A DNA stretch of 64,000 bases, taken from NCBI RefSeq assembly GCF_012027615.1, contig NZ_SNUT01000002.1, positions 186,001-250,000 of the forward strand, read 5' to 3'. Under the pieces are notes generated by a model. That model was given only the letters and a program-made list of their open reading frames with translations, was not told where the DNA came from and ran no database searches. A program made the position numbers and the translations under genes. Positions within the stretch are counted from its first letter, which is position 1; the number at the start of each line of letters is the position of its first letter. This document shows, one piece after another, positions 31,046 to 52,426 of this stretch. The stretch comes from Thermococcus sp. 21S7. GTDB taxonomy: Archaea > Methanobacteriota_B > Thermococci > Thermococcales > Thermococcaceae.

Positions 31046-32335
31046 CTAAAGCCTCGCCACGTGCACCGAACAGGAGATGCACGGGTCGTAGGCGCGAACG
31101 ACCATCTCGGTGAGGTACTTGAGCCTCTCCGGGTCGTCGTTGTAGTGCTTCTCCGCCATCATCCTGACGTGGACCTCCATCATGGCGAAGTTGTAGGCCG
31201 TCGGAGTGATTATGTCCGCGTAGGCAACCCTTCCGTTCTTGACTTCGAGGGCGTAGGTGACGATTCCGCGAGGGGCCTCGGTGGAGCTGACACCGAAGCC
31301 GTCCTTCACCTCAACCCTGTCCCTCGGCGCTATCGGCCACTTGGCGAGGGCCTCGTCTATGAGGTCTATGCCGTGCTCGATGAAGTAGACCAGCTCAAGC
31401 GCCTGGGCGAGGTTGTTTGCGAAGGGGTTGGTCGGCCTGAGCAGGTCTCTGTGGCTCTCGTAGAGCTCCCTGGCCCTTCCGTAGAGTGTCTCCGCGTTGT
31501 TGACCAGCCTCGGAAGCGCACCGACCATAAAGGGCTTCTCGCCCTTGTAGAAGCTGTGCTTGGCGAAGCTGTGCTCGACGACCTTTTCGACGATGTGCTT
31601 CTTGTAGTCCTCGACAGGGAATTCGAAGCCGTCGCTCACCTTGATGTAGTCGCCGTAGATGCCGTAGACGTCTCCCCTCGGCTTTACTGCCATGTGGATT
31701 ATCGGCCCCTCGACCTCCTCGTACTGCTCCAGCTTGGAGAACAGCTCGAAGGTGTACTCCGCCTTCGGGAGTGCTTCGCTGAGGCGCTTCTTCATGGTCT
31801 CAAGGGTGGCTTTGTCGGGCAGCTTGCCGAAGCCTCCGAGGACCACGTTCTCCTGGTGTATCGCCCTCGCTCCGAGTTCGTCCATCATCCAGCTTCCGAG
31901 GTTCTTGAGATCGAGGGCTATGCCTATCTCCTTCTTGTACTCGTCCACCATCTTGAGCGGGTTGGAGTAGCCGAGGTAGTCCGGGAGGACGAGGAGGTAC
32001 AGGTGGAGTGCGTGGCTCTCTATCATGTCGCCGATGTAGAGGACCTCTCTGAGTGCCTGGATTTCCTCGCGCGGGGTGAAGCCTATCGCCTTTTCGGCGG
32101 CCTCCACCGCGGTGAGCTTGTGGGCAGCCGAACAGAATGAGCATATCCTCGGGTAGACGGCTAACGCCTCGTCGAGCTTCTTGCCCACCGTTATGGCCTC
32201 GAAGAACCTCGGGCCCTCTATGATGTTGAGCCTGACCTCCTTGACGCCATCGTCGCCGACGACTATCTCAACGCCGCCCTTGCCCTCAACGCGCGCTATG
32301 TGATCAACGGTGATGGGAAGGTAGAGGTTCTTCAT
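31046..32335 (-). CDS. hydA: Cytoplasmic sulfhydrogenase alpha subunit, [NiFe] catalytic
   Basis: A 429-residue group 3b large subunit. Both nickel-binding CxxC motifs are intact: [12 protein letters not shown] (~62-73) and [14 protein letters not shown] at the end. The residues after the His would be removed by the maturation protease. HydA takes up or evolves H2 with electrons passing through HydD and HydB to the flavin of HydG. Overlaps hydD by 4 bases, the last gene of hydBGDA. Confidence 0.96.
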
Positions 32336-33123
32336 TCTTCCACCCCCTGGAATATCTTCTCAACCATCTCTTCGAGCTTCGGGTTGTGGGCGTTGAACAT
32401 CTTCATGCGCTGGAGTATATCCTCCTTGCTGATTCCCTTCTCCTTGAACGTCCTGGCGAGTGAGTCGAACCAGGCAACGTCGTAGCCTATCGCTCCCCTG
32501 CAGCCGATGCACGCCACTCCAAAGCCTGGGCACCTCGCGTCGCAGCCGGCCCTCGTTATCGGGCCGAGGCACGGCTCTCCTTTCTCTATGAGTACGCACG
32601 GGTGTCCCTTCAGCCTGCACTCGACGCAGACCGGGTAATCTATGTCCTCCGGCCACGATCCGACGAGGAAGGTACCGAGGGCGTAGAGGAAGTCCTTCTT
32701 CTCCGGCGGGCAGCCGTAGATGCGGTAGTCAACCTTGATGTAGTTCTCGACCGGCTCGGCCAGCTTCGGCTCGAACTTAACTTTTCCATCGCCGTAGACG
32801 GTCTTCCAGAGCTCCTCAAGGCTCTTGTCCTTCTCCCAGCTCTGCACACCGCCGTGGACTGCACAGGAGCCGACGGCAACCACTATCTTCGCGTTCTCGC
32901 GTATCTTCTTGACGAGCTCGACCTCCTCCCCGGTGGAGACGCTTCCCTCGATGAAGGCTATGTCCACCGGCTCGTCCTCGTAGCTGTCGCGCTCAAGCAT
33001 GAACCAGCAGACGATTTCCGCGTGCGGGAGCAGCTGGAGTATCTCGTCCATCATGGCAAGCTGGAGCTGACAGCCGTAGCATGAGGTGAGAGCGTAAAAT
33101 CCAATTCTGACCTTTCCTTCCAT
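32332..33123 (-). CDS. hydD: Cytoplasmic sulfhydrogenase delta subunit, [NiFe] small
   Basis: A 263-residue small subunit: [12 protein letters not shown] with the first two cysteines of the proximal cluster, VGSCAVHGG with the third and [11 protein letters not shown] with the fourth. The C-terminal region has further cysteine pairs ([29 protein letters not shown]) for medial/distal [4Fe-4S] clusters. Start ATG 33123 follows GAGGTGG; the frame opens three codons earlier. Confidence 0.95.
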
Positions 33124-33133
33124 CTCCACCACC

Positions 33134-34018
33134 TCAGTCCAGTAAGCCAGGCGTTGATACTATGTCGAAGTACGTGAAGACCGGGCCGTCCTTACAGATG
33201 TACTTCCAGCTCGTGCTCGTTCCGACGTTACAGTGGCCGCACTTTCCTATTCCGCACTTCATCTTTCTCTCCAGCGTGACGAATATGTTCTCCGGGCGAT
33301 AGCCATAGTTGATGAGGGACTCGAAGACGGCCTTGTACATCCTCGGCGGACCGCAGATGGCCACTGCCGTGTTCTTCGGGTTGGTGTTGGCCTCGATGAT
33401 GAAGTTCTGCGGCCTTCCGTGGAGTCCGGGCCACTCGGGGTCGCGCGTAACGCTCTGGATTATCTTGACGTTCTCGGCCTCGGCGAGGTCCTTCATGGCC
33501 TCCAGCTCCTTGTAGAACAGGAGGTCCTTTCCGTAGCGGGCCGTGTTGATGAAGGTTATGTTGCCGTACTTCCAGCGGTTGTCCATGGCGTAGAGGAAGA
33601 CACTCCTGAGCGGGGCGGTTCCAAGACCCGCAGCTATAAGGAGCAGGTCCATGCCCTCCCACTCGTCAACGGGGAATCCGTTTCCATAGGGGCCACGAAC
33701 GAGGACAGTGTCACCGGGCTGGAGCTTGTGGATGACCGTGGTGACCCTTCCAGCTTTCCTGATGCACAGCTCGAAGAATCCCTTCCTCATCGCGGAGGAG
33801 CATATGCTTATCGGAACCTCTCCAACTCCCGGAATCGTCAGCTGAACGAACTGGCCGGGCTTGAACGTCCACTTCTCGGCCAGCTCGGGGTCTTCGAACC
33901 TGAAGAGGAACAGCTTCTCCTTTTCGGTGAGTTGATAGACCTTGAGAACCTTAACCTTGTGGAGTGCGTATGGGTTCTCGTCCGGCATCATAATCTCCTT
34001 GGGAACTACCTCGCTCAT
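33134..34018 (-). CDS. hydG: Cytoplasmic sulfhydrogenase gamma subunit, FAD/NAD(P)-binding
   Basis: A 294-residue ferredoxin-reductase-type protein. [12 protein letters not shown] and the following segment bind [18 protein letters not shown] and [13 protein letters not shown] bind the flavin/nucleotide, and [12 protein letters not shown] holds a [2Fe-2S] cluster. It exchanges electrons between NADPH/NADH and the hydrogenase, and gives the complex its sulfur (polysulfide) reductase activity together with HydB. Overlaps hydB by 4 bases. Confidence 0.95.
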
Positions 34019-35121
34019 ATGTCCTCACCCCTTATCTCCGAAGCGTAGGCGAACCCCCTCTTCGGGATCTCCTCACTTATCTCTGATGGGCAGCTCTTTT
34101 CGCCCTCAAGTCCCATGATGGTGCGCAGGTTCTTCACAAAGCTTATACCCGCCGGGCAGAAGTAGGTGCACCTTCCGCAGCCGACGCAGTAGCTTATGCC
34201 GAGCTTCTCGTTGTAGGAGTTCTTACAGAGGTACCTGTTGCGGAAGCGGTCCTTCTTGGTGGGCCTGAAGTTGTGGTTTCCTGCAACGAGACCGTGGCTC
34301 CTGAGCTGGCAGGAGTCCCAGCGCCTCTCGCGGTAGCCGGTTTCACCGTCGAGGTTGACTATGTCCTGAACCTCGTAGCAGCGGCACGTCGGGCAGGTGG
34401 TGTTGCAGTTGCCGCAGGCGAGACAGATGTCGGCCTGCTCGTCCCACATCGGGTGCTCCATCTCAAGCTCAAGGAGGTACCTGAGGTTGCTCCAGTCCTC
34501 ATGGTACCTGAACGACCTGGAGCGCCTGTTTTCGAACTCGCGGAAGTTGCAGATGTCCTCAGTGGTGACCTCCTCGAAGAGCTTGATGTTCTTGTCGACT
34601 ATCCTGTGACCGGTTGGCGTTCCAACGCGGACGAGCCATCCGTCGGGCAACTCGTGCAGGAACAGGTCGAAGCCGTCGTCGGCAAAATCCGTCTCGCGCA
34701 GGTTGCAGAAGCAGTATTCGTCCGGCATACAGCTGATGCCTATGATGATGCCCTTCTCCCTGCGTACCTTGTAGTACTTGTCTGGAAGTTCGTCGAGGTA
34801 TATGGTGTCAAGCACCTTGAGGCCGAAGATGTCGCAGGCGTGGAGACCGAAGAGCACGAAGGGCTCGACGTCCTCTATGACCTCCCTGTACTCGGCTTTG
34901 GTGAGGTTGAACTCGAAGAGCTTCTCCCTTGGAAGGAAGAAGAACTTCTTCGGCGGCATTATCGTCCTGTTGTAGCTGAACTCTACCTTTTTGACGTCGT
35001 CTATTTCCCTGAAGTCGTAGAACTTCTCGGATATCTTAACCGGGGCGTAAAGCTTGCCCCACTCCTTCAACCTTTCAAGGAACGCGTAGGTGTTCTCCTT
35101 CGGGAGTTTAACGTATCTCAA
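34015..35121 (-). CDS. hydB: Cytoplasmic sulfhydrogenase beta subunit, Fe-S
   Basis: A 368-residue protein related to anaerobic sulfite reductase subunit A. Its ferredoxin motifs include [14 protein letters not shown] and [18 protein letters not shown], plus CFCN earlier. It carries electrons between HydG and HydD. I choose a TTG start at 35121 ([18 protein letters not shown]) because GGAGGTGG lies just upstream; a TTG 15 bases earlier is also in frame. A small upstream frame ends across this start. Confidence 0.93.
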
Positions 35122-35161
35122 CCCAACCACCTCCAATGAACATAACTATGCATGTGCTCAT
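35108..35161 (-). CDS. Possible 17-residue leader peptide upstream of and overlapping hydB
   Basis: ATG 35161 opens [17 protein letters not shown], whose stop (35110-35108) lies just inside hydB in another frame. The ATG is ~22 bases after the predicted transcript start. A similar peptide, MATCTPVFIIGGSW, is encoded at the 5' end of the divergent molybdopterin operon (35415-35456), there in frame with the gene. Both coincide with the ribosome site, so part of the resemblance is forced. Translation is not shown. Confidence 0.3.
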
Positions 35162-35353: not shown

Positions 35354-35456
35354 TTGGAAATACGGTTTTGGAAAGCCCTTTAAGAGGATGCTCCACACCT
35401 CAGGATGAACATAGATGGCAACATGCACTCCTGTGTTCATCATCGGGGGGAGTTGG

Positions 35457-37328
35457 ATGCGTACTATCGTCACGTGCTTTCACTGTGGCATCGGTTGCCG
35501 GATGGGGGTGAAGAAAAAACATTCACGCCCTCATGAGATACATTATCTTCGAGATTTGGGCGCCCCGAATGGCTCCGGCAAGCTCTGCTCACGGGGGAAT
35601 CTGATGTTCGAACCGAGCGCTGGGAGTAACCGAATAAAACGCCCTATGAGGGCTTTGGAGGAAGGAAAGTTTGTGGAGATTAGCTGGGCGGACGCCCTTC
35701 GCGAAGTTGGTTTTCAGCTATCCAAATACGCCCGCGATGATCCCGAGATGCTTGGTTTCATAGGTGGGGAGATGGTATCAAACGAATCGGCGTATCTATT
35801 TCAGAAGCTTGCCAGGTTGCTCGGCACCAACAACGTCGATACAACCGCCTCCCTTTCCCAGGGGATTTCCACTGGGGCTGTTCTTGAAATGGACGCGTGG
35901 GGCCACTGGGCAGCCTTTACGGATATCGACGAGGCAGACCTGATCATAGTCTGGGGGGCAGACCTGGCGGGAAATTACCCGGTACTGCTCGGAAGGATTG
36001 CCAGGGCAAGAGAGCGTGGGGCAAGGGTAATCCTCGTGGATCCTGTAACCGGGAGAACATCGAAATTTGCCGATTTCCACCTTCGGCCCCTGCCGGGTAC
36101 GGACGTCTTCCTCGCGCTCTCCATTATGAACCGGCTGATAAAAACCGACGAACGCTTCGGGGCAGTCCTTCCGGAGGACGTCCTAGGACTCGTATCGAGG
36201 TTCCCCCCGTCGTATGGGGAGGAGCTGACTGGAGTTCAGGAGAGGGTTATAGACGCCGTTGCAGGGGAAATCCTCAGATCCTCCCATGGAATCATTCTCT
36301 GGGGTTCGGGGGTCACAATGAATGAAAACGGTGCCTCCTGCGTGAGGACTCTGATTACGCTCACCTTCATTTCAGGGATGAAGTTTCTTCCCCTCTCAAG
36401 GTACGGGAACTCCCAGGGTGTCCTCGACATGGGGCTCATCCCCAACCTGCTCCCGGGTTATACTCCCCTCTGTGAAAGCGGAGACTTTCAGAAGGCATGG
36501 CTTGTTGAGGGCCTGAACCCCCACCCTGGGAAATCGCTCCCTGAAATGCTGGATGGGGGTACTGGTGTGTTCTACATCCTCGGGGCGGATTTAACCCGCC
36601 ATATCCCGGGTGCCATCGATGCCCTGAGGAACGCGGAATTCGTTGTTCTGCAGGATTCGTTTATGACCGAGACTGCCAAGTTCGCCGATATAATCCTCCC
36701 AAGTGCCCTTATCTACGAGGAAGGCGGATCGACGACGAACTTCGAACGGAGGGTTCTGTGGTGCGGAAAAGCCAAAAGGCCTCCCGGTGAAGCACGGGGT
36801 GCGGTTTCGATTCTTGGGGAGATTGGAAAGGCCATGGACCTCCCGAGCTTCGGTTATACCTTCCCCGAAGAGGTGCTTAGGGAGATAAGCCTCCTTGTTC
36901 CGGGATACCCTGGGCCGAGGAAGCTGGTGGGGATTCCAGGGGGGACTTTACTCGAAAGACCCTCAAGGGCAAAGCGAAAGTTTGCCCCCATAACTCCATC
37001 CAGGCCCCCTCAAGGGGAGATGCTTCTCATTCGGGGCCATTCAGGTCGATTTATGCCCGGTTTACTGGCCGGGAGAATGGAGGAGACTGATGCCGCCCTC
37101 ATAAGCCCCGAGGATGCATCGCGCCTTGGCGTTTCAAGCGGCGACAGGATTGCGATTGAAGTCGGGGACGGCAGGATAGTTGCGAGGGCTAAAATCTCAA
37201 ACCGCACGCTCACTGGAGTCGTTGTGGTGCACTGGGACCTTGTGAGGGAAGCATTACCGTTAGAGCCCCGGAGGAACTTTTTGGTATCCAAGGCCTGCCC
37301 CTGCAGGATTCGGAGGGATGAACCGTGA
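35457..37328 (+). CDS. Formate-dehydrogenase-like molybdopterin oxidoreductase, catalytic residues replaced
   Basis: A 623-residue protein of the FdhF/NuoG group. Cys7, Cys10, Cys14 (CFHCGIGC) and Cys44 (GKLCSRG) should bind a [4Fe-4S] cluster, and the bis-MGD-binding pattern (VWGADLAGNYPVLLG, DPVTGRTSKFADFHL, ILWGSGVTMNENG) is kept. At the active site, where formate dehydrogenases read C-A-R-(V/L)-(Sec/Cys)-H, this protein reads T-A-S-L-S-Q: Ser134 for Sec/Cys and Gln135 for His. The catalytic Arg (RGQNNVQG in E. coli FdhF) aligns with Ser314, with an Arg beside it. It may not oxidise formate; a Ser-ligated metal (as in DMSO reductase) or a NuoG-like electron conduit are alternatives. First gene of a 19-gene operon. 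ATG 35457 follows GGGGGGAG; 35415 is also in frame. Confidence 0.85.
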   Translation: MRTIVTCFHCGIGCRMGVKKKHSRPHEIHYLRDLGAPNGSGKLCSRGNLMFEPSAGSNRIKRPMRALEEGKFVEISWADALREVGFQLSKYARDDPEMLGFIGGEMVSNESAYLFQKLARLLGTNNVDTTASLSQGISTGAVLEMDAWGHWAAFTDIDEADLIIVWGADLAGNYPVLLGRIARARERGARVILVDPVTGRTSKFADFHLRPLPGTDVFLALSIMNRLIKTDERFGAVLPEDVLGLVSRFPPSYGEELTGVQERVIDAVAGEILRSSHGIILWGSGVTMNENGASCVRTLITLTFISGMKFLPLSRYGNSQGVLDMGLIPNLLPGYTPLCESGDFQKAWLVEGLNPHPGKSLPEMLDGGTGVFYILGADLTRHIPGAIDALRNAEFVVLQDSFMTETAKFADIILPSALIYEEGGSTTNFERRVLWCGKAKRPPGEARGAVSILGEIGKAMDLPSFGYTFPEEVLREISLLVPGYPGPRKLVGIPGGTLLERPSRAKRKFAPITPSRPPQGEMLLIRGHSGRFMPGLLAGRMEETDAALISPEDASRLGVSSGDRIAIEVGDGRIVARAKISNRTLTGVVVVHWDLVREALPLEPRRNFLVSKACPCRIRRDEP

Positions 37329-37819
37329 AAAAGGTGTTCATTGACTTCAGGAGGTGCATAGGTTGCGGCTCCTGCGAGGCGGCCTGCGCGAGGGAGCACA
37401 GCGGGAAGCCGAACATATCCATCGTGCAGACGTCCGAACTAATGATGATGTCCTTCAACTGCCGTCACTGTGAGAACGCCCCCTGCATGCTCATCTGTCC
37501 TGCGAGGGCGCTTTACAGAGACGAAGACGGGGCCGTTCGCGTTAAATACCATGAATGTATTGGCTGCATGCTGTGTTCTATCGCCTGTCCCTTTGGAACA
37601 CCGCGTTTTGACGAACGCCTCAAGGTCATGGTGAAGTGCGACCTCTGCGCCCACAGGAGGGCTGAGGGCAAGCTTCCAGCCTGTGTCGAGACCTGCCCGA
37701 TGGATGCGCTGATTCTGGCCACCGAGGAGGAGATAGTGGGGATGAAGCTGAAGGAGGCCGCCGTCAGGAGGGAGGAGTTCATCAGGAAAGTTGAAGACAT
37801 GATGGGGTGTGGGCCATGA
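37325..37819 (+). CDS. Four-cluster ferredoxin-like electron transfer subunit (HycB/FdhB type)
   Basis: A 164-residue protein with four cysteine groups for [4Fe-4S] clusters: CIGCGSCEAACARE, CRHCENAPCMLICP, CIGCMLCSIACP and CDLCAHRRAEG...CVETCP. It should carry electrons from the molybdopterin subunit to the hydrogenase module. The start GTG 37325 overlaps the previous stop by 4 bases and its own stop overlaps the next ATG by 4, so translation is coupled through the operon. A paralogue closes the operon at 50301. Confidence 0.92.
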   Translation: MKKVFIDFRRCIGCGSCEAACAREHSGKPNISIVQTSELMMMSFNCRHCENAPCMLICPARALYRDEDGAVRVKYHECIGCMLCSIACPFGTPRFDERLKVMVKCDLCAHRRAEGKLPACVETCPMDALILATEEEIVGMKLKEAAVRREEFIRKVEDMMGCGP

Positions 37820-39240
37820 TTGCGCTCGTACTCTCTTCAATAGCGCTCGCCTATCTCGGGGTTGTATGCTTCGTGCTCGATGACAGGAGGGCAGACACGG
37901 TAATGCTCCCCCTGCTCTGGCTGTCTTCCCTGATTCAGGTTCTTGTTGCGGCGGTGTTTTACCGCTCCCCAGACCCGATTCACGCTGTGTTCCTTGACAT
38001 GAATGGATTTGGAGAGGTTTACGGACTCAGGGTAGACGGCACGAGCGTTTTCACGGCGTTCGTCGTTTCCACTGCGGGGGCGGTGTTTCTGACCTATGCC
38101 GTCCGCTATATGGATGAAAAGAACGTCGGCCATCCGCACAGGGGGCAGAAGGGCCGGTTCTACGGCTGGATGATGCTGTTCCTTGGTTCAACGCTGGCTT
38201 TCATATACTCCTCCACGGTGCTCCAGATGCTGATATTCTTTGAGCTTATGAGCCTCGCGTGCTGGGGCGTTGTGGGGTTCTATGGCAGTAAAAGGGCGGA
38301 ACGGGCGGCGCTCAAGGCCCTGCTGATTCCCAACTTCGGGGCCATAATCGGCTTCTACACAGCGGTGGCGTATGGAATCAAATACGGGAACCTCGGGCTT
38401 GACTTCCTGGGAGCACTCCCCGAGAGGGAGAAGATGATACTGTTCCTGTGCTTTATGGTGGCAGCGTTTACCAAGAGCGCCCAGTTTCCGCTCTACTCGT
38501 GGATCCCGGACGCGATGGAGGCCCCGACCCCGGCAAGTGCCTTTCTCCACGGCGCAGCTATGGTAGAGATGGGGGTCTACCTTCTGATAAGGGTCGTCCA
38601 GTTCATGGAGCCCCCGGCCACCGTTTTCTACCCCATGGCGCTGATTCTCGTGGCAACCCTCACCGTTGCAATGCTCCAGTATCCGAGGCAGAGGGATGCC
38701 AAGAAACTGCTGGCGTATTCCACGATAGCGGAGTGTGCCATAATGTACACCGGTGTCGCCATTGCCGTCCTCGGAAACCCCCTCGGAATTAAAGCCGCGC
38801 TCTTTCAGCTGATGAACCACGCTTACCTCAAGGGACTGGCCTTCCTGACGGCTGGATCGTTTACCTACTACTACGGGACGCTGGACATGGGGAGGATAAA
38901 GGGCCTGAAGGAAACCCCCCTCCTGGCGTACTCATGGAGCTTTTCCCTACTTGGACTCGCGGGTCTGCCCCCGTTTGGGGTGTTCTTTAGCAAGCTCTAC
39001 ATATACCTCAACGCCGGGAAGATGTACGATGTCCCGCTCGGAATCCTGCTCCTCCTCGTGGTTCTCGCGGATTCGGTAGTTCTTCTGTACTCAGCACTGA
39101 GGAATATCAACTCCATGATATTCAGTGAAGGGGAGCCGAGAAGGGTGGACGGAATCGTAAGTGTGGCACTGTGTTCGCTTATCCTCCTTTCCCTCACGTC
39201 CGCCTTTATTGGCTACGCCCTTCTGGGGGTGGTAGGATGA
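37816..39240 (+). CDS. Antiporter-like membrane subunit (NuoL/M/N-MrpD family) of the hydrogenase
   Basis: A 474-residue protein with ~13-14 membrane helices. Family signatures include FFELMSLACWGVVGFYGSK (a Glu in a helix), AFTKSAQFPLYSWIPDAMEAPTP with the channel Lys, and HAYLKGLAFLTAGSF with the His/Lys of the second half-channel. It likely moves H+ or Na+ when the hydrogenase turns over. It begins within the end of the preceding Fe-S subunit. Confidence 0.88.
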   Translation: MIALVLSSIALAYLGVVCFVLDDRRADTVMLPLLWLSSLIQVLVAAVFYRSPDPIHAVFLDMNGFGEVYGLRVDGTSVFTAFVVSTAGAVFLTYAVRYMDEKNVGHPHRGQKGRFYGWMMLFLGSTLAFIYSSTVLQMLIFFELMSLACWGVVGFYGSKRAERAALKALLIPNFGAIIGFYTAVAYGIKYGNLGLDFLGALPEREKMILFLCFMVAAFTKSAQFPLYSWIPDAMEAPTPASAFLHGAAMVEMGVYLLIRVVQFMEPPATVFYPMALILVATLTVAMLQYPRQRDAKKLLAYSTIAECAIMYTGVAIAVLGNPLGIKAALFQLMNHAYLKGLAFLTAGSFTYYYGTLDMGRIKGLKETPLLAYSWSFSLLGLAGLPPFGVFFSKLYIYLNAGKMYDVPLGILLLLVVLADSVVLLYSALRNINSMIFSEGEPRRVDGIVSVALCSLILLSLTSAFIGYALLGVVG

Positions 39241-41021
39241 TATTTGCGCTGATGTTTCTCCTGGCTATCATCGTAGGACTGGTGTTCAGAAACTCGAAGG
39301 TAGTGAGCGTTCTTTCGGCGCTCGCGTCCATTTCCCTGGTGGTTGAGGCTACCGGAGGAATCGTCTTCCACACCGCCATCTCAGGAATCACCGTTGCCTT
39401 TGCCACCGATGACCTGTCCAGGTTCTTCGCCATACTCGTGGGGGTGGCGGGCTTTGCCGTCTCCGTGTACTCGCTCTCCTATATGGGCAGGAGGCACCTC
39501 GTGACCGCGGCGTACCCCCTATTTGTGCTTTCTATGGCCTTGATAGTCCTCGCCAGGGACTTCCTCACTCTCCTGATTTTCTGGGAGCTGATGACGGCCG
39601 CTTCCTACGTCCTCATCATGTATAACCACGAGAGGAGGGAAACCCTGAGGGCCAGCGTCGTGTACCTTGTTGCAATGCACGCCCTGAACACTGCACCTCT
39701 GATTATGGGGCTGGGCTACATCTACAGTCATGCGGGAACCCTTGACTATTCGGCGCTAAGCGGTGCTGTAGTTCCCTCATGGGTGATCTGGGCATTGACC
39801 GTGGGGTTCCTAGCAAAGGCGGGCATTTTCCCCCTGCATTTCTGGCTCCCCGAGGCCCATCCCGTTGCACCGAGTAACGTTTCGGCACTCCTCAGTGGGG
39901 TTATGCTCAAAATGGCGGTCTATGGGATGTTAAGAACCTTGGAAACGTTCGGTAGGGCGGGTTCAATAGCAGTCCCGCTTGTGGTGCTCTCAATCGTCAC
40001 AATCGCCCTCGGTTCGTTGCTGGCACTCAACCAGAAGGACATCAAGAGGATGATGGCCTACTCAAGCATCGACAACATGGGATACATATTCCTAGGAATT
40101 GGGGCGTACCTGCTCCTTTCGGGGGAGCTTAGGGAAGTGGCCATAACAGCCGTCCTGCTGCACTCCTTCAACCACATGCTGTTCAAGAACCTCCTTTTCA
40201 TGCTCTCCGGCAACATCCTCCACGCAACGGGAAGGAAGGACACGGGCATCAGGGGGCTCTCAAGAGAGATGCCCATCACTTTCGGACTGTCAATCGTTGG
40301 AATCCTTGCGGTGTCGGGTGTACCCCCTCTGAATGGCTTTGCGAGCAAGTGGCTGATTTACAGGGCGACATTCCTATCGAAGAACCCTCTCCTGGTGGCG
40401 GGCGGTGCAGTTGCACTCCTCGGGAGCGCGCTCACCCTGGCGGCCTACCTCAAGCTTTACCGTGTGTTTACCGGTGAGCCAAACGTCGAGGCCGAGGAGG
40501 CTCCCTTACCAATGCTCCTTGGCGAGGGGATTCTTGCGTTCCTCTGCGTTGTGGGCGGTGTTGTTCCCGGTGTGCTACTGCGTCCGGTGGGCCTTCCATA
40601 CCCGACAACGCTTGACCTCCCGCTCTTTACCCTGATAATAGCTGTGCTCATTGCGTCCCTGCTCGTGGCACTGCCTCCCAGGGCAAGGGAGAGCGGAGTC
40701 TGGACCAACGGGGAACCCGTAGAGGAGTTTGACATAAAGCCGGAGCACATGTACACCGGCGTTTCGGGGGCAGTGCAGAGGATCTCGGCGGCGGGGGAGG
40801 GAATCCAGTCCCTGGCACTATCCGGGAGCAGGTTCTACCGTTCGACTGGAGGGGGCTACATTGACGAGGCGCTGTTCATGCCGCTGATCAGGCTCTCCTG
40901 CGGGTTCGGGGCATGCTTCAAGGAGCTGTCGAAGGAGCTGAACGGGATGCTCGCGACAACTTTCCTCGTGCTCGTGGCGATGGTAATCGCGTTCCTGGCC
41001 TTCGTGGGGGTGATAGGATGA
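39237..41021 (+). CDS. Antiporter-like membrane subunit (HyfB/NuoL type)
   Basis: A 594-residue protein with ~14 helices. FWELMTAASYVLIMYNHE, FLAKAGIFPLHFWLPEAHPVAP and HSFNHMLFKNLLFMLSGNIL are the conserved proton-channel segments with Glu, Lys and His. The C-terminal ~130 residues (WTNGEPVEEFDIKPEHMYTG, then a last helix) form an extension like that of HyfB/HycC and NuoL lateral helices. Second of two such subunits beside the Mrp set. Confidence 0.88.
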   Translation: MIFALMFLLAIIVGLVFRNSKVVSVLSALASISLVVEATGGIVFHTAISGITVAFATDDLSRFFAILVGVAGFAVSVYSLSYMGRRHLVTAAYPLFVLSMALIVLARDFLTLLIFWELMTAASYVLIMYNHERRETLRASVVYLVAMHALNTAPLIMGLGYIYSHAGTLDYSALSGAVVPSWVIWALTVGFLAKAGIFPLHFWLPEAHPVAPSNVSALLSGVMLKMAVYGMLRTLETFGRAGSIAVPLVVLSIVTIALGSLLALNQKDIKRMMAYSSIDNMGYIFLGIGAYLLLSGELREVAITAVLLHSFNHMLFKNLLFMLSGNILHATGRKDTGIRGLSREMPITFGLSIVGILAVSGVPPLNGFASKWLIYRATFLSKNPLLVAGGAVALLGSALTLAAYLKLYRVFTGEPNVEAEEAPLPMLLGEGILAFLCVVGGVVPGVLLRPVGLPYPTTLDLPLFTLIIAVLIASLLVALPPRARESGVWTNGEPVEEFDIKPEHMYTGVSGAVQRISAAGEGIQSLALSGSRFYRSTGGGYIDEALFMPLIRLSCGFGACFKELSKELNGMLATTFLVLVAMVIAFLAFVGVIG

Positions 41022-41896
41022 ACGCTCAGGACGCCGCTCCAATCATCGTGCCCCTAATGGTACCTTTCATTGATGGGGTTGCAAGAAAGGTCCGAGCAGT
41101 GATTCAGAAGCGTGTCGGCCCATCGATTGTCCAGAGCTGGTACGACCTGCTGAGCTTTTTGAGGGTAGAGTGTAACTCTCCCGTGGATTCCCTGACATTC
41201 AGACTGGCCCCCTACATCGCCTTTGCGAGCGCCATAGGGATGCTCCTGTTCCTGCCCTTTGGAGAAAAGGCACCCTTTGGGTTCGAGGGAGACGTCATAG
41301 CCTTTATCTACGTCTTCACGATGTTCTCGGCCGCCGTTGTGATGGGAGCCCTGAGCGTTCCCAGCTCCTACACATCTGCCGGTGCCGGCAGGGAGGTCAC
41401 GATGTCCATAGCTTTCAAACCGCTTTTCGCGGTTGTTATTGGAATATTTGCGATGAAAACCGGTGCTTTAACCATAGAGGACATAGCGCCAGCATTAAAA
41501 CCCTCAATATCAGTACTCGGCGCATACCTTCTGCTGATTTATCTGACGTACGTTGAGGCCGGTTTCGTGCCGTATGACATAGCCGAAGCGGAAACGGAGC
41601 TCCTCGGTGGTCCCCTTGCCGAGTACAGCGGAAGACTGTTTGCAATTATGTTGTGGGCGTTCCAGATAAAGAGGTTCGCCATGATATGGCTGCTGGCGTC
41701 AATGCTCGTCCTTCCATTCGTGAGCGGGGGTGCTGTGTTACTGTTCCAGTGCGGTGCGTTTGCACTCCTTTTCCTTGGGATGGTCGTGTATGAGGCGATG
41801 AGCGCCCGCTACCGCATTGATCAGGCTGTCAGAAATGGGACCCTGGCATTGACCCTCGGAATTTTCCTCCTGCTCGTTGGATGGATGGGGTGGTAA
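41018..41896 (+). CDS. NuoH/HycD-like membrane anchor subunit
   Basis: A 292-residue protein with ~8 helices. RKVRAVIQKRVGPSIVQSWYD is the conserved amphipathic segment at the start, and YVEAGFVPYDIAEAETELLGG is the acidic loop facing the quinone/proton chamber in complex I and Mbh. It anchors the [NiFe] module to the membrane arm. Four-base overlap with the previous gene. Confidence 0.9.
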   Translation: MNAQDAAPIIVPLMVPFIDGVARKVRAVIQKRVGPSIVQSWYDLLSFLRVECNSPVDSLTFRLAPYIAFASAIGMLLFLPFGEKAPFGFEGDVIAFIYVFTMFSAAVVMGALSVPSSYTSAGAGREVTMSIAFKPLFAVVIGIFAMKTGALTIEDIAPALKPSISVLGAYLLLIYLTYVEAGFVPYDIAEAETELLGGPLAEYSGRLFAIMLWAFQIKRFAMIWLLASMLVLPFVSGGAVLLFQCGAFALLFLGMVVYEAMSARYRIDQAVRNGTLALTLGIFLLLVGWMGW

Positions 41897-41897
41897 T

Positions 41898-43532
41898 ATG
41901 ATAGCGGAGTTTGAGACCAGGTTTGGACCGATCCTTGAAAAGAGAGCCCTCGGCGAGAAGAAAGTGCTGTACACGATAATGGCGAGGCCAGAGGACTTTC
42001 AGGATATGGTTAGGTTCCTTTTCGCTGGCCAGAATGTAAGGCTCTTTACAATGGTTGGGACTGACGAAAGGACTGTCGAAGATGCGTTCAGCATAACGTA
42101 CTGGTTCGCGGATACCTCTAAGGGAGAAATCCTGGGCGTGAGGTTATACGTCCCCGAGGACAGGCCGGTGTTTCCGAGCGTGGCTCAGTTCCATAGGGGC
42201 GCCCTATGGTTCGAGAGGGAAGTTCAGGACCTCCTCGGCGTTGAGGCGGAGGGTCTGCCTGATCAGAGGAGGCTGATACTGCCCGACGACTGGCCGGAGG
42301 GTGTTTATCCCCTCAGGGAGGACTTCAAGTACTCGGAAAGCCCGCCGGGTGAGAAGAGGTATCCCTACGTCCGACCCCCCGAAGGCACGAGTGTTCATGC
42401 GATAGGGCCGTACCACATCGCCCTCGACGAGCCGGCGCACTTCAGACTCTTTGTCAGGGGGGAGGAAATCGTAGGCGTCGATTACAGGGGCTTCTACTCC
42501 CACAGGGGAATTGAAAAGCTCGCGAGGGGCAGGCTGAACTACAATCAGGTGTGCTTCATAGCCGAGAGAATCTGCGGGATATGTGGTTTCTGTCACTCAA
42601 CGGCCTACGCCCAGGCAATAGAGGAGGCCGCCGGAATAGAAGTTCCTGAGAGGGCAGAGTACATCAGAACACTGCTTCTTGAACTTGAGCGGCTCCACTC
42701 CCACCTCCTGTGGATTGGTGTTGCGGCACATCTTGTGGGCTTTGACACCGCGTTCATGGAGGTCTGGCGTATAAGGGAGAGGATCATGTGGCTGGCTGAG
42801 AGGCTAACCGGGAACAGAAAGACCTACGGACTCGTCGTCGTTGGAGGCGTGAGGAGAGACCTCCTTGATTACCGGAGGGAGCTTGTGGAGAGGGAACTCG
42901 ATGCGATGAAGAGGGAATTCAACGATGTTGTGGAGTTCCTCCTGTCCTCCAGCGGGTTCATCAAAAGATGTGAAGGGGTTGGAGTGCTGTCAAAAGAAAA
43001 GGCGCGGGCCTGGGACGCGTGTGGGCCGGTTGCAAGGGCGTCTGGTGTGGACTACGACGTCAGGAGGGACTTTCCCTACGCTGCATATGGGGATTTGAGC
43101 TTTGAAGTTCCGGTTGAGAAGGAGGGGGACGTTCTGGCGAGGGCCACTGTTAGGATAGAGGAGGTACGGCAGAGCATCTCATTAATTGAGCAGGTTCTCG
43201 ACGCGATGCCTGGCGGGGGCATCTTAGCGGACTTTGGGGATATCCCGGAGGGAGCGGAAGGCATCTCAGCCGTGGAGGCCCCCAGGGGTGAGAACGTACA
43301 CTACATCCTGGCGGGGGACAGAAATACCATCTACCGCTGGCGCGTGAAGGCCGCCACGTACAACAACCTGCAAACTGTGCCGGACATGCTCGTCGGTTAC
43401 ACGATAGCGGACGCACCTTTGATTATAGCCAGCATCGACCCGTGTTACTCCTGCACCGAGAGGGTTCAGGTGGTTGATATCGAGAGTGGAAAGTCGAGGG
43501 TGGTGCGGCTGGGGGTGGGAATTTGCCGGTAA
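41898..43532 (+). CDS. [NiFe] hydrogenase large subunit with N-terminal NuoC-like domain
   Basis: A 544-residue fusion. Residues ~1-150 are a NuoC/HycE N-domain (RGALWFEREVQDLLGVEAEG). The rest is a group 4 large subunit. Both metal motifs are intact: ERICGICGFCHSTAY and IDPCYSCTERVQVVD, so nickel should bind and H2 chemistry is likely. Unlike HydA and FrhA the sequence continues ~20 residues after the second motif, consistent with a cleaved tail. GGGGTGG precedes the ATG at 41898. Confidence 0.93.
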   Translation: MIAEFETRFGPILEKRALGEKKVLYTIMARPEDFQDMVRFLFAGQNVRLFTMVGTDERTVEDAFSITYWFADTSKGEILGVRLYVPEDRPVFPSVAQFHRGALWFEREVQDLLGVEAEGLPDQRRLILPDDWPEGVYPLREDFKYSESPPGEKRYPYVRPPEGTSVHAIGPYHIALDEPAHFRLFVRGEEIVGVDYRGFYSHRGIEKLARGRLNYNQVCFIAERICGICGFCHSTAYAQAIEEAAGIEVPERAEYIRTLLLELERLHSHLLWIGVAAHLVGFDTAFMEVWRIRERIMWLAERLTGNRKTYGLVVVGGVRRDLLDYRRELVERELDAMKREFNDVVEFLLSSSGFIKRCEGVGVLSKEKARAWDACGPVARASGVDYDVRRDFPYAAYGDLSFEVPVEKEGDVLARATVRIEEVRQSISLIEQVLDAMPGGGILADFGDIPEGAEGISAVEAPRGENVHYILAGDRNTIYRWRVKAATYNNLQTVPDMLVGYTIADAPLIIASIDPCYSCTERVQVVDIESGKSRVVRLGVGICR

Positions 43533-44020
43533 CCAAGGCGTACCCGTTCGAGCCTGAAGAGGCTCCTCCGGAATACAGGGGCATCCCCCGGATCGACCCC
43601 GTGCTCTGTATAGGCTGCGGTGCCTGCGCCAACGCTTGCCCGCCGAACGCGATACTGAGGATAGACGACCCCCAAAACGGGACGAGAAGGATAGTGCTCG
43701 ACGTGGGCAGGTGCATAAGGTGCGCCCGCTGCGAGGAAGTCTGCCCGACGGGTGCGGTCAGGCTCACCACTGAGTTTGAGGCCGCCACCGATGATAGGGG
43801 TGATCACGTGGAGGTCGTTGAGCTGGGACTCGCCAGGTGCAGGGGCTGCGGGAAGTATACCCACTACACTGAACGGCAGGTGGAGAAGGTACTGTCCCTG
43901 ATTCCGAGGGGAATCCTTGACTTTGACAGGGTGAGGGAAAAACTCCCCCTCTGTTCCGAGTGCAAGCTGAAGCTGACGGTACTCAACGCCACCAAATTCG
44001 GGGAGGTGGATGGACTGTGA
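43523..44020 (+). CDS. Polyferredoxin subunit of the membrane hydrogenase (NuoI/HyfH type)
   Basis: A 165-residue protein with two 4Fe-4S motifs: CIGCGACANACPPNA and CIRCARCEEVCPTGA. A C-terminal cysteine set (CRGCGKYTHYTE and CSECKLK) is extra to the usual subunit and might bind metal. The start is TTG 43523 after GGGGGTGGGAA, within the end of the large subunit gene. Its stop overlaps the GTG of the next gene. Confidence 0.88.
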   Translation: MPVTKAYPFEPEEAPPEYRGIPRIDPVLCIGCGACANACPPNAILRIDDPQNGTRRIVLDVGRCIRCARCEEVCPTGAVRLTTEFEAATDDRGDHVEVVELGLARCRGCGKYTHYTERQVEKVLSLIPRGILDFDRVREKLPLCSECKLKLTVLNATKFGEVDGL

Positions 44021-44778
44021 AATCCCTTTGGGTCTTCCACGTGAATACTGGGGCCTGCAACGGCTGCGACATAGAGATACTGGACGTGCTCACCCCGTAC
44101 TATGACATAGAGAGGCTCGGAGTAAAGCTCGTCCCAACGCCGAGGCACGCCCACGCCCTCCTGGTCACCGGGCCCTTGACGAGGCAGGCATACCATGCGG
44201 CCAAGATGGCCTACGAAGCCATGCCGCCGAAGCCGAGGATTGTCATAGCCGTAGGAACCTGTGCGTGTTCCGGGGGGATATTTCACGACAGCTACGCCCT
44301 GAGGCGCGAGTACAGGGAGTCCCTCGAATACCCTCTGAAGGGTGGAACCTCAGAGTTCCTGCCCGTGCACCTCTACATCCCGGGATGCCCTCCGAGACCG
44401 GAGGAAATCCTCTACGGCGTTGCGCTCCTCAAAAACATCGTGGAGAAAAAAATTAGGGGAGAACTGTTCCGTGAGGGCACCTTCGTTCTCCCGAGGGAGA
44501 GCTTCAACGCGTGGGTGGAGGTCCTTCTCCGCGCAAGGATAAGGAAGGAGCTGGGCTATTTTGATGGTTACTCTCTGCTCAAGCGTTTTATGGAACTCGT
44601 TGAAAGCTCAGAAAGCAAAGAAGAGCTGGAAAAACTCGTTGAGAAGGCCATAAATGATGAGGGCGATTCTAGGCTCAGATACGGCCTTGAGAAGCTTTAT
44701 TCCTACTATCTTGAGGTGGTGAGAACCTATGAGGGCATACTTGCTGCGAAGAGGGCGATCATTGGGCTTCCAAAATGA
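44017..44778 (+). CDS. [NiFe] hydrogenase small subunit (NuoB/HycG type)
   Basis: A 253-residue protein. The proximal [4Fe-4S] ligands are GACNGCDIEI (two Cys), VGTCACSGG and PGCPPRPEEIL. The core is followed by a ~100-residue helical C-terminal extension (ELVESSESKEELEKLVEKAI) that is longer than in typical small subunits. The GTG start at 44017 overlaps the previous stop. Confidence 0.92.
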   Translation: MKSLWVFHVNTGACNGCDIEILDVLTPYYDIERLGVKLVPTPRHAHALLVTGPLTRQAYHAAKMAYEAMPPKPRIVIAVGTCACSGGIFHDSYALRREYRESLEYPLKGGTSEFLPVHLYIPGCPPRPEEILYGVALLKNIVEKKIRGELFREGTFVLPRESFNAWVEVLLRARIRKELGYFDGYSLLKRFMELVESSESKEELEKLVEKAINDEGDSRLRYGLEKLYSYYLEVVRTYEGILAAKRAIIGLPK

Positions 44779-44983
44779 GGTGGCGAGGGTACTCGACCAT
44801 TTTGAATCCAGTGCATTGGTTGAGGAGGTAATCTGCGAGATAAGCCCCGAAACCGCGAGTCTGCTGGAGAAAGGTGTCCTTGACATCGAAGCGTTCCCCA
44901 GGGAGGACAGGGAGATTATAGAAAAACATCTGGAGGCCCTCAGGAAAGGAGAAATCACGGTGGGGTGGATTCCCAATGTTTGA
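44729..44983 (+). CDS. Small protein of the hydrogenase-Mrp operon, unknown
   Basis: An 84-residue protein (MRAYLLRRGRSLGFQNEVAR start) with an acidic helical core, EEVICEISPETASLLEKGVL. GAGGTGGTGAGA precedes the ATG at 44729, which lies 50 bases inside the preceding gene; its end overlaps mnhF by 8. Its place between the hydrogenase and Mrp modules suggests a linker or assembly role, without direct evidence. Confidence 0.6.
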   Translation: MRAYLLRRGRSLGFQNEVARVLDHFESSALVEEVICEISPETASLLEKGVLDIEAFPREDREIIEKHLEALRKGEITVGWIPNV

Positions 44984-45245
44984 GCACACAATTCCCGTCC
45001 TGATTGCGCTCTACGGGATTGCAGGGGTAGTCTATTTCATAAGGGTGCTACTGGGCCCCACGGTTCTCGATTCAATACTCGCAGGGGATTGTGTAAGCCT
45101 TGACGTCGCCTTGATTGCACTCCTCGTAGCGGTGTACTACGAAAACAACCTGCTCGCGGGGGGAGCCTTCTTCCTCGTCCTCTGGGCGTTCGTGCTCGAC
45201 GTGTTCGCGTCAAAGTACCTCGTTAAGGGGGAGGTGGGGGTATGA
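44976..45245 (+). CDS. mnhF: Mrp antiporter subunit F
   Basis: An 89-residue, three-helix protein. YFIRVLLGPTVLDSILAGDC is the MrpF signature (R-x-x-x-G-P-T-x-x-D-R/S). First of seven Mrp genes that couple H2 evolution to Na+ export. The Mrp gene order here is F, G, D-like (DUF4040), B, C, E, D. Confidence 0.9.
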   Translation: MFEHTIPVLIALYGIAGVVYFIRVLLGPTVLDSILAGDCVSLDVALIALLVAVYYENNLLAGGAFFLVLWAFVLDVFASKYLVKGEVGV

Positions 45246-45574
45246 TACTCTCGTTCATCGGGGTTGTACTGCTCATCGTAGGGGCAGTCTGTGACATATT
45301 CGGGGCCATCGGGATGCACCGCTTTGGAAACTTCTACCTGAGGCTCCATGCTGCAACCGTTGGTACGGTGGGGGGGAAGTTCTACCCCTTCCTCGGGGCG
45401 GGCCTCATTGCCCTCGACAGGGGACTGCTCCCCGTGGCGGGGGTGGCTTTCCTGAGTGCATTCACCCTGTTGATAACGACATCCGTTGGGAGCCATGCGC
45501 TTGCCTACGCCGCTGAGAGGGCAGGGGTGGTGAAGATTGAGCACAACGAGCTTGGAGGGGATTGGGATGATTGA
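45242..45574 (+). CDS. mnhG: Mrp antiporter subunit G
   Basis: A 110-residue, three-helix protein. VCDIFGAIGMHRFGNFYLRL and HAATVGTVGGKFYPFLGAGL carry the MrpG pattern (GxxRFPDxxxRLHAxTKA/GT). Start overlaps mnhF by 4 bases and the end overlaps the next gene by 8. Confidence 0.9.
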   Translation: MILSFIGVVLLIVGAVCDIFGAIGMHRFGNFYLRLHAATVGTVGGKFYPFLGAGLIALDRGLLPVAGVAFLSAFTLLITTSVGSHALAYAAERAGVVKIEHNELGGDWDD

Positions 45575-45809
45575 GCTTGCGGCCCTTGCCCTGCTCGGCT
45601 GCCTTGGGCTCGCATACCTTGTGGTCACGGAGAGGGATCTGCTGAGGGCCGTCATCTACACCGGGATCTTTGGTGGTCTCGTAATCCTCGTAGCGTACAC
45701 CCTCATGGCACCTGACATAGTACTCGCCTACGTTGCCATTTCCGTCGCTCTATCCACGGGCCTGATGGTGTTTCTCGTTAGCAAAACAACTCGGGAAGAG
45801 GTGGTGTGA
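45567..45809 (+). CDS. MrpA C-terminal-like / MbhD-type subunit (DUF4040)
   Basis: An 80-residue three-helix protein, MIELAALALLGCLGLAYLVV then LLRAVIYTGIFGGLVILVAY. This matches the segment of MrpA that in archaeal Mbh/Mrp systems is a separate subunit. GGAGGGGATTGGG precedes the ATG at 45567. Confidence 0.85.
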   Translation: MIELAALALLGCLGLAYLVVTERDLLRAVIYTGIFGGLVILVAYTLMAPDIVLAYVAISVALSTGLMVFLVSKTTREEVV

Positions 45810-46526
45810 TTGAGGATTGCTGGAATGCTGGTGATCATGCTGATTACACTCTCCGCCGCATACCTGCTCCAGCCCCACGTCGAAGGCATCGTCGGTGTCG
45901 GGGCGCTTGGTGAGTTCTACCTGGGGAACAGCTACCTCGGCGAACGTTCGGCCGGCTCGCCTGAAGTTGTCACGTCAATCCTGTGGGACTACCGCGGCGT
46001 TGACACGTACTTCGAGACGGCAGTACTCTTTCTTGCCATAATAAGTGCGGTTTCGGTGTTCCGGGGCTTTAACGGGCCGAAATTCCGGGGAGACGGGTTC
46101 ACAGAGGTAGTCAAAACTGGGGTCAAGCTCGTGGCCTTCATCACGTTCGTGGCGTCTGCTTCGGTGGCGTTCCACGGGCACCTCACCCCGGGTGGCGGCT
46201 TCCAGGGGGGTTCAATGCTCGCCGCTGGTTCCCTGCTCATCATAGTCGGCTTCTCCAAGAAGGCCCTTGAGAGGAACGGGATAACGAAGGTGAGGGCGCT
46301 CGCGATAAGAACCGCGGGACTCGTGACCATAGCCTGCGTCGCGGCGTACCCCCTGCTGAGGGGACTCCATTTTATGCAGAACCTGCCCGTTTATCCAGTC
46401 AAGGTGGGGGGACTCCTCGTGAGCGGAAGCCTGCTTCTCTATAATCTGGCCGAGTTCTTGGCCGTTGGGGCAGGGTTTACGATAATCTTTCTTCTCCTTG
46501 CGAATCCGGAGGAGGGATGGCAATGA
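45810..46526 (+). CDS. mnhB: Mrp antiporter subunit B with fused MbhE-like segment
   Basis: A 238-residue protein. The N-terminal ~100 residues (one helix, a soluble part with TSILWDYRGVDTYFETAVLF) correspond to the MrpA tail/MbhE. The remainder (FHGHLTPGGGFQGGSMLAAG and following helices) is MrpB. The two are separate genes in several Mbh operons, so this is a fusion. TTG start at 45810 immediately follows the previous stop. Confidence 0.85.
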   Translation: MRIAGMLVIMLITLSAAYLLQPHVEGIVGVGALGEFYLGNSYLGERSAGSPEVVTSILWDYRGVDTYFETAVLFLAIISAVSVFRGFNGPKFRGDGFTEVVKTGVKLVAFITFVASASVAFHGHLTPGGGFQGGSMLAAGSLLIIVGFSKKALERNGITKVRALAIRTAGLVTIACVAAYPLLRGLHFMQNLPVYPVKVGGLLVSGSLLLYNLAEFLAVGAGFTIIFLLLANPEEGWQ

Positions 46527-46900
46527 GCCTCGCAGCGTCTCTGGTGATAACGGCAACGGTAGCCACCATGCTGGTGGCGCTCTACGGAGTGGCGGTTAGG
46601 CCAAACCTCGTTAAGAAGGTGCTCTGCCTGTCCCTGTTTTCAGATATGGTAAACGTCCTTGTCATATTCCTGGGCTACAGGGACGTCAAAAACCCCCTTC
46701 CTCCGGTTTTAACTGAGTACTCGGGTGAAGGCGTGACGAAGCTCGTGGAGAGAAGCGTTGACCCGTTCCCTCAGGCGCTGACGATAACTGCCATAGTTAT
46801 CGGCCTTGCGGTTACCGTCCTCATGGCCTACGGTGTGATACACATCCAGAGAAAATACGGGACGGTGGATGTCCGGAAGCTCGCGGGGTGGGATGAATGA
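46523..46900 (+). CDS. mnhC: Mrp antiporter subunit C (NuoK-like)
   Basis: A 125-residue three-helix protein; VRPNLVKKVLCLSLFSDMVN and PFPQALTITAIVIGLAVTVL are the conserved MrpC/NuoK segments. The ATG at 46523 overlaps the previous stop (ATGA). Confidence 0.9.
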   Translation: MSLAASLVITATVATMLVALYGVAVRPNLVKKVLCLSLFSDMVNVLVIFLGYRDVKNPLPPVLTEYSGEGVTKLVERSVDPFPQALTITAIVIGLAVTVLMAYGVIHIQRKYGTVDVRKLAGWDE

Positions 46901-47391
46901 GGTCTGTCCCTGTGATGATTGCGGCGTTCGTAACTTACATCATCATAACGGGCTCGATAACGGCTTACGATATAATCACCGGTGCGATAACCGCCTTTGC
47001 GGCAGGACTGCTCTTCGGGAAGCACCTCGTTAGTAACCCAGGCAAGGCCCTGAACCCGGCGAGATGGGTGCGCTTTGCGCTCTACTTTCTCAAGTACATC
47101 ACGGTAATCGAGGCGAAGGCCCACGCCGACGTCATCAGGAGGATACTCAGTGGGGATGTCAGGCCGGGCATCGTTAAAGTGCCCCTGAACCTGGGAGACG
47201 AATACGCCCGTTTCCTCGTTGCCGCTTCAATAACCAATACCCCCGGAACCGTGACAGTCCACATGGACGATGGCTGTGTGTACGTGAACTGGATAAGCGT
47301 CTCCACTTCGGACCCTGAAAAACGCAGGGAGGAAATCCTCGGAGAGTTTGAGGAAAACGCAAAGAAAATCTTTGAGGGGGGAGGAGCATGA
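46897..47391 (+). CDS. mnhE: Mrp antiporter subunit E
   Basis: A 164-residue protein with two or three N-terminal helices and a soluble MrpE domain (VKVPLNLGDEYARFLVAASI, NTPGTVTVHMDDGCVYVNWI). Four-base overlaps on both sides. Confidence 0.9.
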   Translation: MRSVPVMIAAFVTYIIITGSITAYDIITGAITAFAAGLLFGKHLVSNPGKALNPARWVRFALYFLKYITVIEAKAHADVIRRILSGDVRPGIVKVPLNLGDEYARFLVAASITNTPGTVTVHMDDGCVYVNWISVSTSDPEKRREEILGEFEENAKKIFEGGGA

Positions 47392-48920: not shown

Positions 48921-49244
48921 ATGATTGGAGAGTTCAGAAAGCACTACGGTGAAAACCTGCTCGGGGTTGCACTCCTGGGCGAGACATGGCTTGTGGTTTT
49001 GAAAGAGGGAGACAAGGCGGAGCTACTCGCCGATGCCGCAGAAAAGTGGGAGGGACTGGACGTGATTGTGGTGCCGGCAGACTCTATCCACAACCTCCAT
49101 CCCGAGCTCTTCGGAGAGGTCAAGATTGTTCATGACCCCACGGGAGTTGTTTCAGAGGTCATGGGGATGGCTCTGGAGATGAAAGGCGCCTACCCGACGG
49201 TGTGGAACCTACGGCTTATTGACGTTACGGAGGTGGAAAGATGA
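48921..49244 (+). CDS. Uncharacterised 107-residue protein of the operon
   Basis: Not recognised. Alpha/beta protein (LLGVALLGETWLVVLKEGDK, LDVIVVPADSIHNLHPELFG) that could bind a nucleotide or act as a chaperone; no membrane segment. ATG 48921 directly follows the mnhD stop and its end overlaps the flavoprotein gene by 4 bases. Confidence 0.65.
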   Translation: MIGEFRKHYGENLLGVALLGETWLVVLKEGDKAELLADAAEKWEGLDVIVVPADSIHNLHPELFGEVKIVHDPTGVVSEVMGMALEMKGAYPTVWNLRLIDVTEVER

Positions 49245-50299: not shown

Positions 50300-50300
50300 T

Positions 50301-50894: not shown

Positions 50895-50981
50895 GTAACA
50901 TTTATAAGTGTTTGTTCCGATTAAACGTTCGAATATTGCGATTATATGTCCAAATATCACACCTTAAGTTACAAACTCATG

Positions 50982-51017
50982 GTTGTATACATTTGGTCCA
51001 AAAAAACCTTTTATTGG
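50982..51017 (+). promoter_or_regulatory. adh promoter with degenerate SurR-like site and frh-like core
   Basis: GTTGTATACATTTGGTC (50982-50998) resembles GTTn3AACn5GTT with two mismatches. The core from 50992 to 51017 matches the frh promoter (52357-52382) in 23 of 26 bases, including the AT-rich TATA stretch CTTTTATTGG. The two promoters probably share a regulator. Confidence 0.5.
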
Positions 51018-51058
51018 GCGTCTACTACATACGAATGAGCACATTTGGAGGGTCCGCG

Positions 51059-52279: not shown

Positions 52280-52352
52280 GGAGACGCTTTCTTTTATCCT
52301 TTTTGATTTAATCATTTTTAGGTTCTATATGCATCTTGAGTATTTTATTTTT

Positions 52353-52382
52353 AACCTTTGGTTCAAAAAATCTTTTTATTGG
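52353..52382 (+). promoter_or_regulatory. frh promoter with AACCTTTGGTT palindrome
   Basis: AACCTTTGGTT (52353-52363), identical to the hyd-strand site at 35236-35226, directly precedes a TATA-like TCTTTTTATTGG (52371-52382). Upstream TTT before AAC gives ATTn3AACn5GTT, one mismatch from the extended SurR consensus. Confidence 0.6.
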
Positions 52383-52426
52383 CTTGTTTGCAGGTCGAAT
52401 TGAGAAGGAAATCGGGGGAGATCATT

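Follow-up and report, generated by a model that had tools for sequence, protein, structure and literature searches.

Comparative analysis of a 64,000-nucleotide stretch of the Thermococcus sp. 21S7 genome (hereinafter, the window) confirms, on sequence grounds, that the FdhA-like protein encoded at positions 35457..37328 of the plus strand (hereinafter FdhA*) is a descendant of a formate dehydrogenase (FDH) catalytic subunit from which the formate-handling residues have been lost. With moderate confidence, we propose that FdhA* no longer oxidizes formate and acts as an Fe-S conduit and docking subunit of a membrane [NiFe] hydrogenase-Mrp complex, in the position of NuoG.

The active site of FdhA* and the order of residue loss

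The FdhA* open reading frame encodes a protein of 623 amino acids (67.9 kDa) and starts with the ATG at 35457, right after a Shine-Dalgarno-like run GGGGGGAG (35445..35452, plus strand). In an alignment with FDHs of solved structure and 41 relatives, both active-site blocks of FdhA* are free of gaps, which rules out misalignment: TTASLSQG aligns with xCARL(U/C)H, and PLSRYGNSQG aligns with PLRGQNNVQG. Accordingly, the Cys/Sec140, His141 and Arg333 of FDH (FdhF numbering) are replaced in FdhA* by Ser134, Gln135 and Ser314, respectively, and the Arg of the CAR motif by Ser132. An initial reading made from the sequence only had described the catalytic string as TASLSQ and the Arg of the RGQNN loop as replaced by Ser; the alignment bears out this description, with Ser134 and Gln135, not a Cys/Sec and a His, in the places of the catalytic pair. 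Ser134 aligns at the metal-ligand position; the nearest relatives of FdhA* are FDHs. That reading had also noted that the Fe-S cysteines are kept, and the Fe-S ligands Cys 7, 10, 14 and 44 are invariant in the alignment of relatives.

The AlphaFold2 model of FdhA* (pLDDT 87) adopts the FdhF fold, and its closest fold match is FdhF (TM 0.88 to FdhF in the E. coli formate hydrogenlyase, 7z0t_A). The formate dehydrogenase alpha profile TIGR01591 scores 338.6 bits, under the cut-off of 666, and the NuoG profile TIGR01973 scores 102 bits, under the cut-off of 470; the protein begins at the FDH-type Fe-S motif and contains none of the N-terminal [2Fe-2S] domains of NuoG. A scan with FdhA* of a genome collection that excludes close records retrieved only distant FDHs and NuoG-like proteins.

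An ortholog of FdhA* is present in 13 of the 94 Thermococcaceae genomes searched, the host included. These proteins occupy one side of a branch with a support of 100, joined to catalytic Fdh2-type FDHs with the CARLCH and RGQNN motifs, and the placement is the same in a FastTree tree of 91 sequences, so that, by phylogeny, the FdhA* clade is derived from catalytic FDHs. A sequencing error or a pseudogene is ruled out by the intact frames in the 13 genomes and by dN/dS well below 1, and chance or error by the identical state in independent genomes, with CARLCH/RGQNN retained in catalytic paralogs of the same family.

Three subclades are distinguished by their active-site motifs. In subclade C (L082-L086), TSH(L/F)CHG is combined with AGQNN, i.e., Cys and His are present and both Arg are gone; subclade B (L080, L081) has TAA(I/V)SHA and GRYGN, i.e., Ser-His; and subclade A has SRYGN combined either with TASLSHG (L076-L078) or with TASLSQG (the host, L075 and L079). 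The Ser at position 134 is present in all eight sequences of A and B, and Arg315, one residue past the lost Arg, is kept across both. The initial suggestion that the three formate-handling residues were replaced together is thus wrong: given these intermediate states among the relatives, the loss is stepwise rather than concerted, and the order read from the sequences is Arg, then Cys, then His.

The changes extend beyond the formate site. Among 178 positions that are near-invariant in catalytic FDHs, subclades A, B and C retain 84, 88 and 110, respectively; the solo FDHs, a group on long branches whose active site is intact, served as a control and retain 136. The TIGR01591 scores fall from 796-939 bits in the catalytic paralogs to 504 in C, 346 in B and 339 in A, and those of Pfam Molydop_binding from about 85-100 bits to 65 in C and 33-36 in B and A. 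The motifs HTxTMTxRS and PWHWxxNxLT, characteristic of the C-terminal domain of catalytic FDHs, are absent from A and B, and the cluster-side Lys (the Lys44 equivalent) is Arg in both. The claim that the molybdopterin pattern is kept therefore holds only in part for the window protein, in which this Lys is Arg46, both motifs are gone and Molydop_binding scores 36 bits. In one subclade A protein (L078, from G023), the Lys between the metal site and the Fe-S cluster is Trp (LCSWG).

Identity between A and B is 26% in domain IV compared to 47% overall. Nevertheless, Ser134 and the RYGNSQG loop are common to the two subclades, which suggests that the old pocket is still under constraint. From these sequence features, it appears probable that A and B no longer hold a normal bis-MGD. 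The host encodes MobA and so probably synthesizes MGD; hence absence of cofactor synthesis is not a decisive explanation. FdhD (PF02634) was not found in 12 of the 13 clade genomes, but this absence had to be dropped as a mark of the clade because two genomes with a catalytic Fdh2 (G019 and G007) also lack FdhD, suggesting that some Thermococcales FDHs may manage without it.

FdhA* evolves faster than its operon partners and is by far the least conserved subunit. The identity of FdhA* from one subclade to another is about 41%, compared to about 70-79% for the first polyferredoxin, the hydrogenase large subunit, the GltD-like protein and the second polyferredoxin (see below), whereas in catalytic Fdh2 operons FdhA is 84-91% identical and, in the few pairs available, not consistently the fastest-evolving member. 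The dN/dS values of FdhA*, 0.08-0.23, indicate purifying selection; dS is saturated in the catalytic pairs, so the contrast with these is rough.

The operon and its GltD-FeS2 module

Gene order and family matches corroborate the initial description of the locus, in which an FDH-like subunit stands first in a hydrogenase-Mrp operon (all genes on the plus strand). FdhA* is followed by a HycB/FdhB-like polyferredoxin with 17 Cys (FeS1; 37325..37819; HycB of the E. coli formate hydrogenlyase, 7z0s_B, is among the matches), an antiporter-like membrane subunit of the HyfD/NuoL type (37807..39240; NF005097 above the cut-off), a second such subunit of the HyfB/NuoN type (39171..41021; assigned by position, relatives and T. 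litoralis MhyD) and a NuoH-like membrane subunit (40913..41896), the true starts of the latter two probably lying inside the respective frames. The [NiFe] hydrogenase large subunit of the NuoC-NuoD type (41877..43532), a NuoI-like 2x[4Fe-4S] subunit (43523..44020) and the small subunit of the NuoB type (44008..44778) come next. Both CxxC nickel motifs of the large subunit (CGICGFC and DPCYSC) are intact, in agreement with the initial observation that the rest of the operon shows no decay, and together with the NuoB/I/H-like partners they identify an energy-converting [NiFe] hydrogenase of the Mfh/Hyc type. A small ORF conserved in relatives (44729..44983) separates this module from the seven ORFs of an Mrp/Mnh cation/proton antiporter module (44976..48920; MnhF, G, DUF4040-type, B, C, E, D, named by position and comparison with the T. 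onnurineus Mnh operons). The operon ends with a fast-evolving 107-amino acid protein without a family match (48921..49244), a GltD/NfnL-like FAD-NAD(P)H oxidoreductase (49241..50299) and an Fdh3G2-like polyferredoxin with 16 Cys (FeS2; 50292..50807). No formate transporter-like ORF was seen in the operon.

The operon is divergent from a four-gene sulfhydrogenase (sh) operon on the minus strand (31046..35136; subunits named by position and resemblance), an arrangement that corresponds to the Group 3 fhl-sh layout of Holden and Sistu 2023 (PMC10025317), defined as an fhl-type operon that lacks a formate transporter and diverges from an sh operon. The operons of the FdhA* clade as a whole are assigned to this group. 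Some variation is apparent around this layout. One orthologous operon (L110, from G054) lacks the Mrp module and retains GltD-FeS2, and its NuoL-like subunit is 39% identical, compared to 75% elsewhere, as if replaced; in another (L113, from G076), an insertion of ~930 bp at about 8231-9159 splits the region that matches the second antiporter-like gene. In the window, FeS2 is followed by genes for an iron-dependent alcohol dehydrogenase-like protein and an FrhAGB-type hydrogenase (50912-55116), which are shared with L139 and L140, both near relatives, and are absent after FeS2 in L133-L136 and L141.

The nearest catalytic relatives in the tree belong to systems such as T. onnurineus Fdh2-Mfh2-Mnh2 (Group 1A), which has the homologous order FdhA-FeS-hydrogenase-Mrp. 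Unlike FdhA*, the T. onnurineus Fdh2 has the CARLCH and RGQNN motifs and is required for growth on formate.

In the window, as in all ortholog regions that were read to the 3' end, the GltD-like and FeS2 genes come last in the operon (the L113 region stops inside the GltD gene, and L115, a short contig, falls short of it). This pair is not unique to the FdhA* clade: certain catalytic Fdh2 operons have it nearby as well, downstream in both G007 and G012, upstream in G019 (presumably T. gammatolerans EJ3), but it was not found around Fdh2 of G026 (which we take to be T. onnurineus NA1). GltD-FeS2 is thus older than the loss of the formate site and was not acquired along with it; the common ancestor probably combined an NADP(H) module with a formate site, of which the FdhA* clade kept only the former. 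The GltD-like and FeS2 proteins are 77% and 75% identical, respectively, to their counterparts in the Fdh3 locus (L121), and Arg204-Arg205 of the GltD-like protein match those of T. onnurineus Fdh3B. Fdh3B and Fdh3G2 constitute the NADP(H) side of the purified NADP-dependent FDH Fdh3 (PMC8965080); Fdh3A, unlike the window system, is catalytic and soluble and comes without a hydrogenase module.

The role of FdhA* and published formate hydrogenlyases

FdhA* would occupy the place of NuoG in complex I, with roles in electron transfer and docking. Electrons from NADPH would pass through the FAD of the GltD-like protein and FeS2 to the [4Fe-4S] cluster of FdhA*, and from there through FeS1 and the NuoI/NuoB-like subunits to the [NiFe] center; the route would be reversible and coupled to H+/Na+ movement. 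The elements of this scheme that we infer are the lack of a functional metal cofactor, the identity of the partner as NADPH and the direction of electron flow. FdhA* and NuoG share the molybdopterin-oxidoreductase fold and, as proposed here, a conduit position that feeds NuoI/NuoB-type subunits; FdhA* differs in lacking the [2Fe-2S] domains and in its independent origin inside the FDHs. A precedent is StnC of the Stn transhydrogenase (8OH5), in which a GltD domain passes electrons of NADPH through a NuoG domain, and the FdhF-like part is catalytically inactive (PMC10482914). StnC is a single fused polypeptide within a soluble bacterial bifurcating complex where its partner is StnAB, whereas the window contains separate genes (35457-37328 and 49241-50299) and the partner is a membrane hydrogenase.

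The sequence-only reading had left a choice between a NuoG-like conduit and an enzyme with a Ser-ligated Mo/W. In the latter case, FdhA* would bind a W/Mo bis-pterin with a Ser ligand (or no protein ligand) and act on a substrate other than formate. Ser-ligated metal occurs in DMSO reductases; the universal presence of Ser134 in A and B, the RYGNSQG loop shared by these divergent subclades, Arg315 adjoining the lost Arg, the strong conservation around residues 101-130 and the presence of MobA in the host all fit such an enzyme. Yet domain IV has lost the motifs seen in catalytic FDHs, the His/Gln position varies within A, the metal-to-cluster Lys is replaced by Arg or even Trp, and FdhA* is far less conserved than the rest of the operon, so we regard an altered Mo/W enzyme as unlikely, albeit the main alternative. 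By our reading of the sequences, the NuoG-like conduit is better supported, given that the erosion reaches the dinucleotide domain, that FdhA* is the fastest-evolving member of the operon, that an NADP(H)-type module is present and that StnC provides a precedent. Less probable still is a vestigial structural plug required for the assembly of FeS1 and the hydrogenase, with no physiological electron flow through it and the hydrogenase fed by ferredoxin or via FeS1 directly: the fast divergence of FdhA* and the loss of the cluster-side Lys in A and B would be expected of a plug, but all four Fe-S Cys are invariant, the gene is under purifying selection and none of the copies in the 13 genomes is broken.

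The remaining alternative, that FdhA* is still an FDH, with an unusual active site, goes back to the proposal made for the formate hydrogenlyase of T. litoralis, encoded by fdhAB-mhyCDEFGH, which shares the operon layout and the divergent sh neighbor with the window. The 13 primers published by Takacs et al. 2008 (PMC2432063) all match L112 without a mismatch, the basis on which we name G077 T. litoralis, and the L112 FdhA (637 amino acids, 71.6 kDa) has the published mass. The FdhA of the T. litoralis 'formate hydrogenlyase' belongs to subclade C; the window protein (Ser, Gln, Ser) is further changed than this FdhA, in which Cys-His is present. Formate-dependent H2 evolution by T. litoralis membranes, as seen by Takacs et al., speaks for retained FDH activity. 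Against it, this evolution was described as 'not fully reproducible', and T. litoralis encodes another FDH besides, the motif of which is intact (L128). Moreover, T. litoralis is listed as negative for H2-formate conversion (PMC10025317, Table 3), although the authors connect negative results of this kind with the lack of a formate transporter. Considering also that subclade A lacks the Cys, the Arg and, in part, the His, we consider a formate-oxidizing FdhA* highly improbable. Both papers call the system a formate hydrogenlyase and, in the text read, contain no remark on lost catalytic residues; neither 'active site' nor 'residue' turned up in a word search of Holden and Sistu 2023.

Because the formate residues are eroded across the lineage, the clusters annotated, and for one species published, as 'formate hydrogenlyase' probably draw their electrons from a different donor, with NADPH the likeliest. 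This corrects the annotation of an archaeal lineage and one published assignment, and the lost formate site offers a direct reason, beside the absence of a transporter, why interconversion of H2 and formate would not occur in species that have Group 3 operons only, a question that the 2023 review (PMC10025317) leaves open. The conduit reading predicts coupling of NADPH and H2 at the membrane. More tentatively, a formate hydrogenlyase may have given rise to an ion-pumping hydrogenase linked to NAD(P)H, its FDH having become a NuoG-like conduit, with the intermediates preserved, in a recent parallel to the origin of NuoG in complex I; such a transition would bear on how complex I acquired NuoG.

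A second altered clade: Group 4

Holden and Sistu 2023 (PMC10025317) designate 'fhl only' operons as Group 4, and we place T. onnurineus Fdh1 there by layout. All 30 Group-4-type FdhA sequences that were read (T. onnurineus Fdh1 and relatives: L122, L125, L129, L130, L156-L180, L191) have the Cys, with the His replaced by Gln and Arg333 by Pro, a loss separate from that in the FdhA* clade. The new pocket is strongly conserved (usually PGRYCQY and VFPGAQCG, the most frequent pair, or VCRMCQS and AIPGAHNG), and the two proteins tested with TIGR01591 score 713 and 668 bits, above the cut-off. By sequence, this looks like a specialized enzyme rather than erosion, and the Group-4-type 'Fdh1' proteins are probably not formate dehydrogenases either; T. 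onnurineus Fdh1 is upregulated on sulfur, unlike the other hydrogenase clusters (PMC4463584).

In the three Group 4 loci examined, a MobA-type guanylyltransferase gene is located 3' of the operon, no more than a few kb away or as far as about 15 kb (L131:14876-15457, directly adjacent; L137:8356-8931, close; and G089:C1:197724), with the MobA identity established by NCBIfam for L131. The small protein encoded after the Mrp module in the Group 4 operon of L131 (15454-15894), which shows a weak nucleotidyltransferase match under the cut-off, and the 107-amino acid protein of the window (48921-49244) resemble each other by eye.
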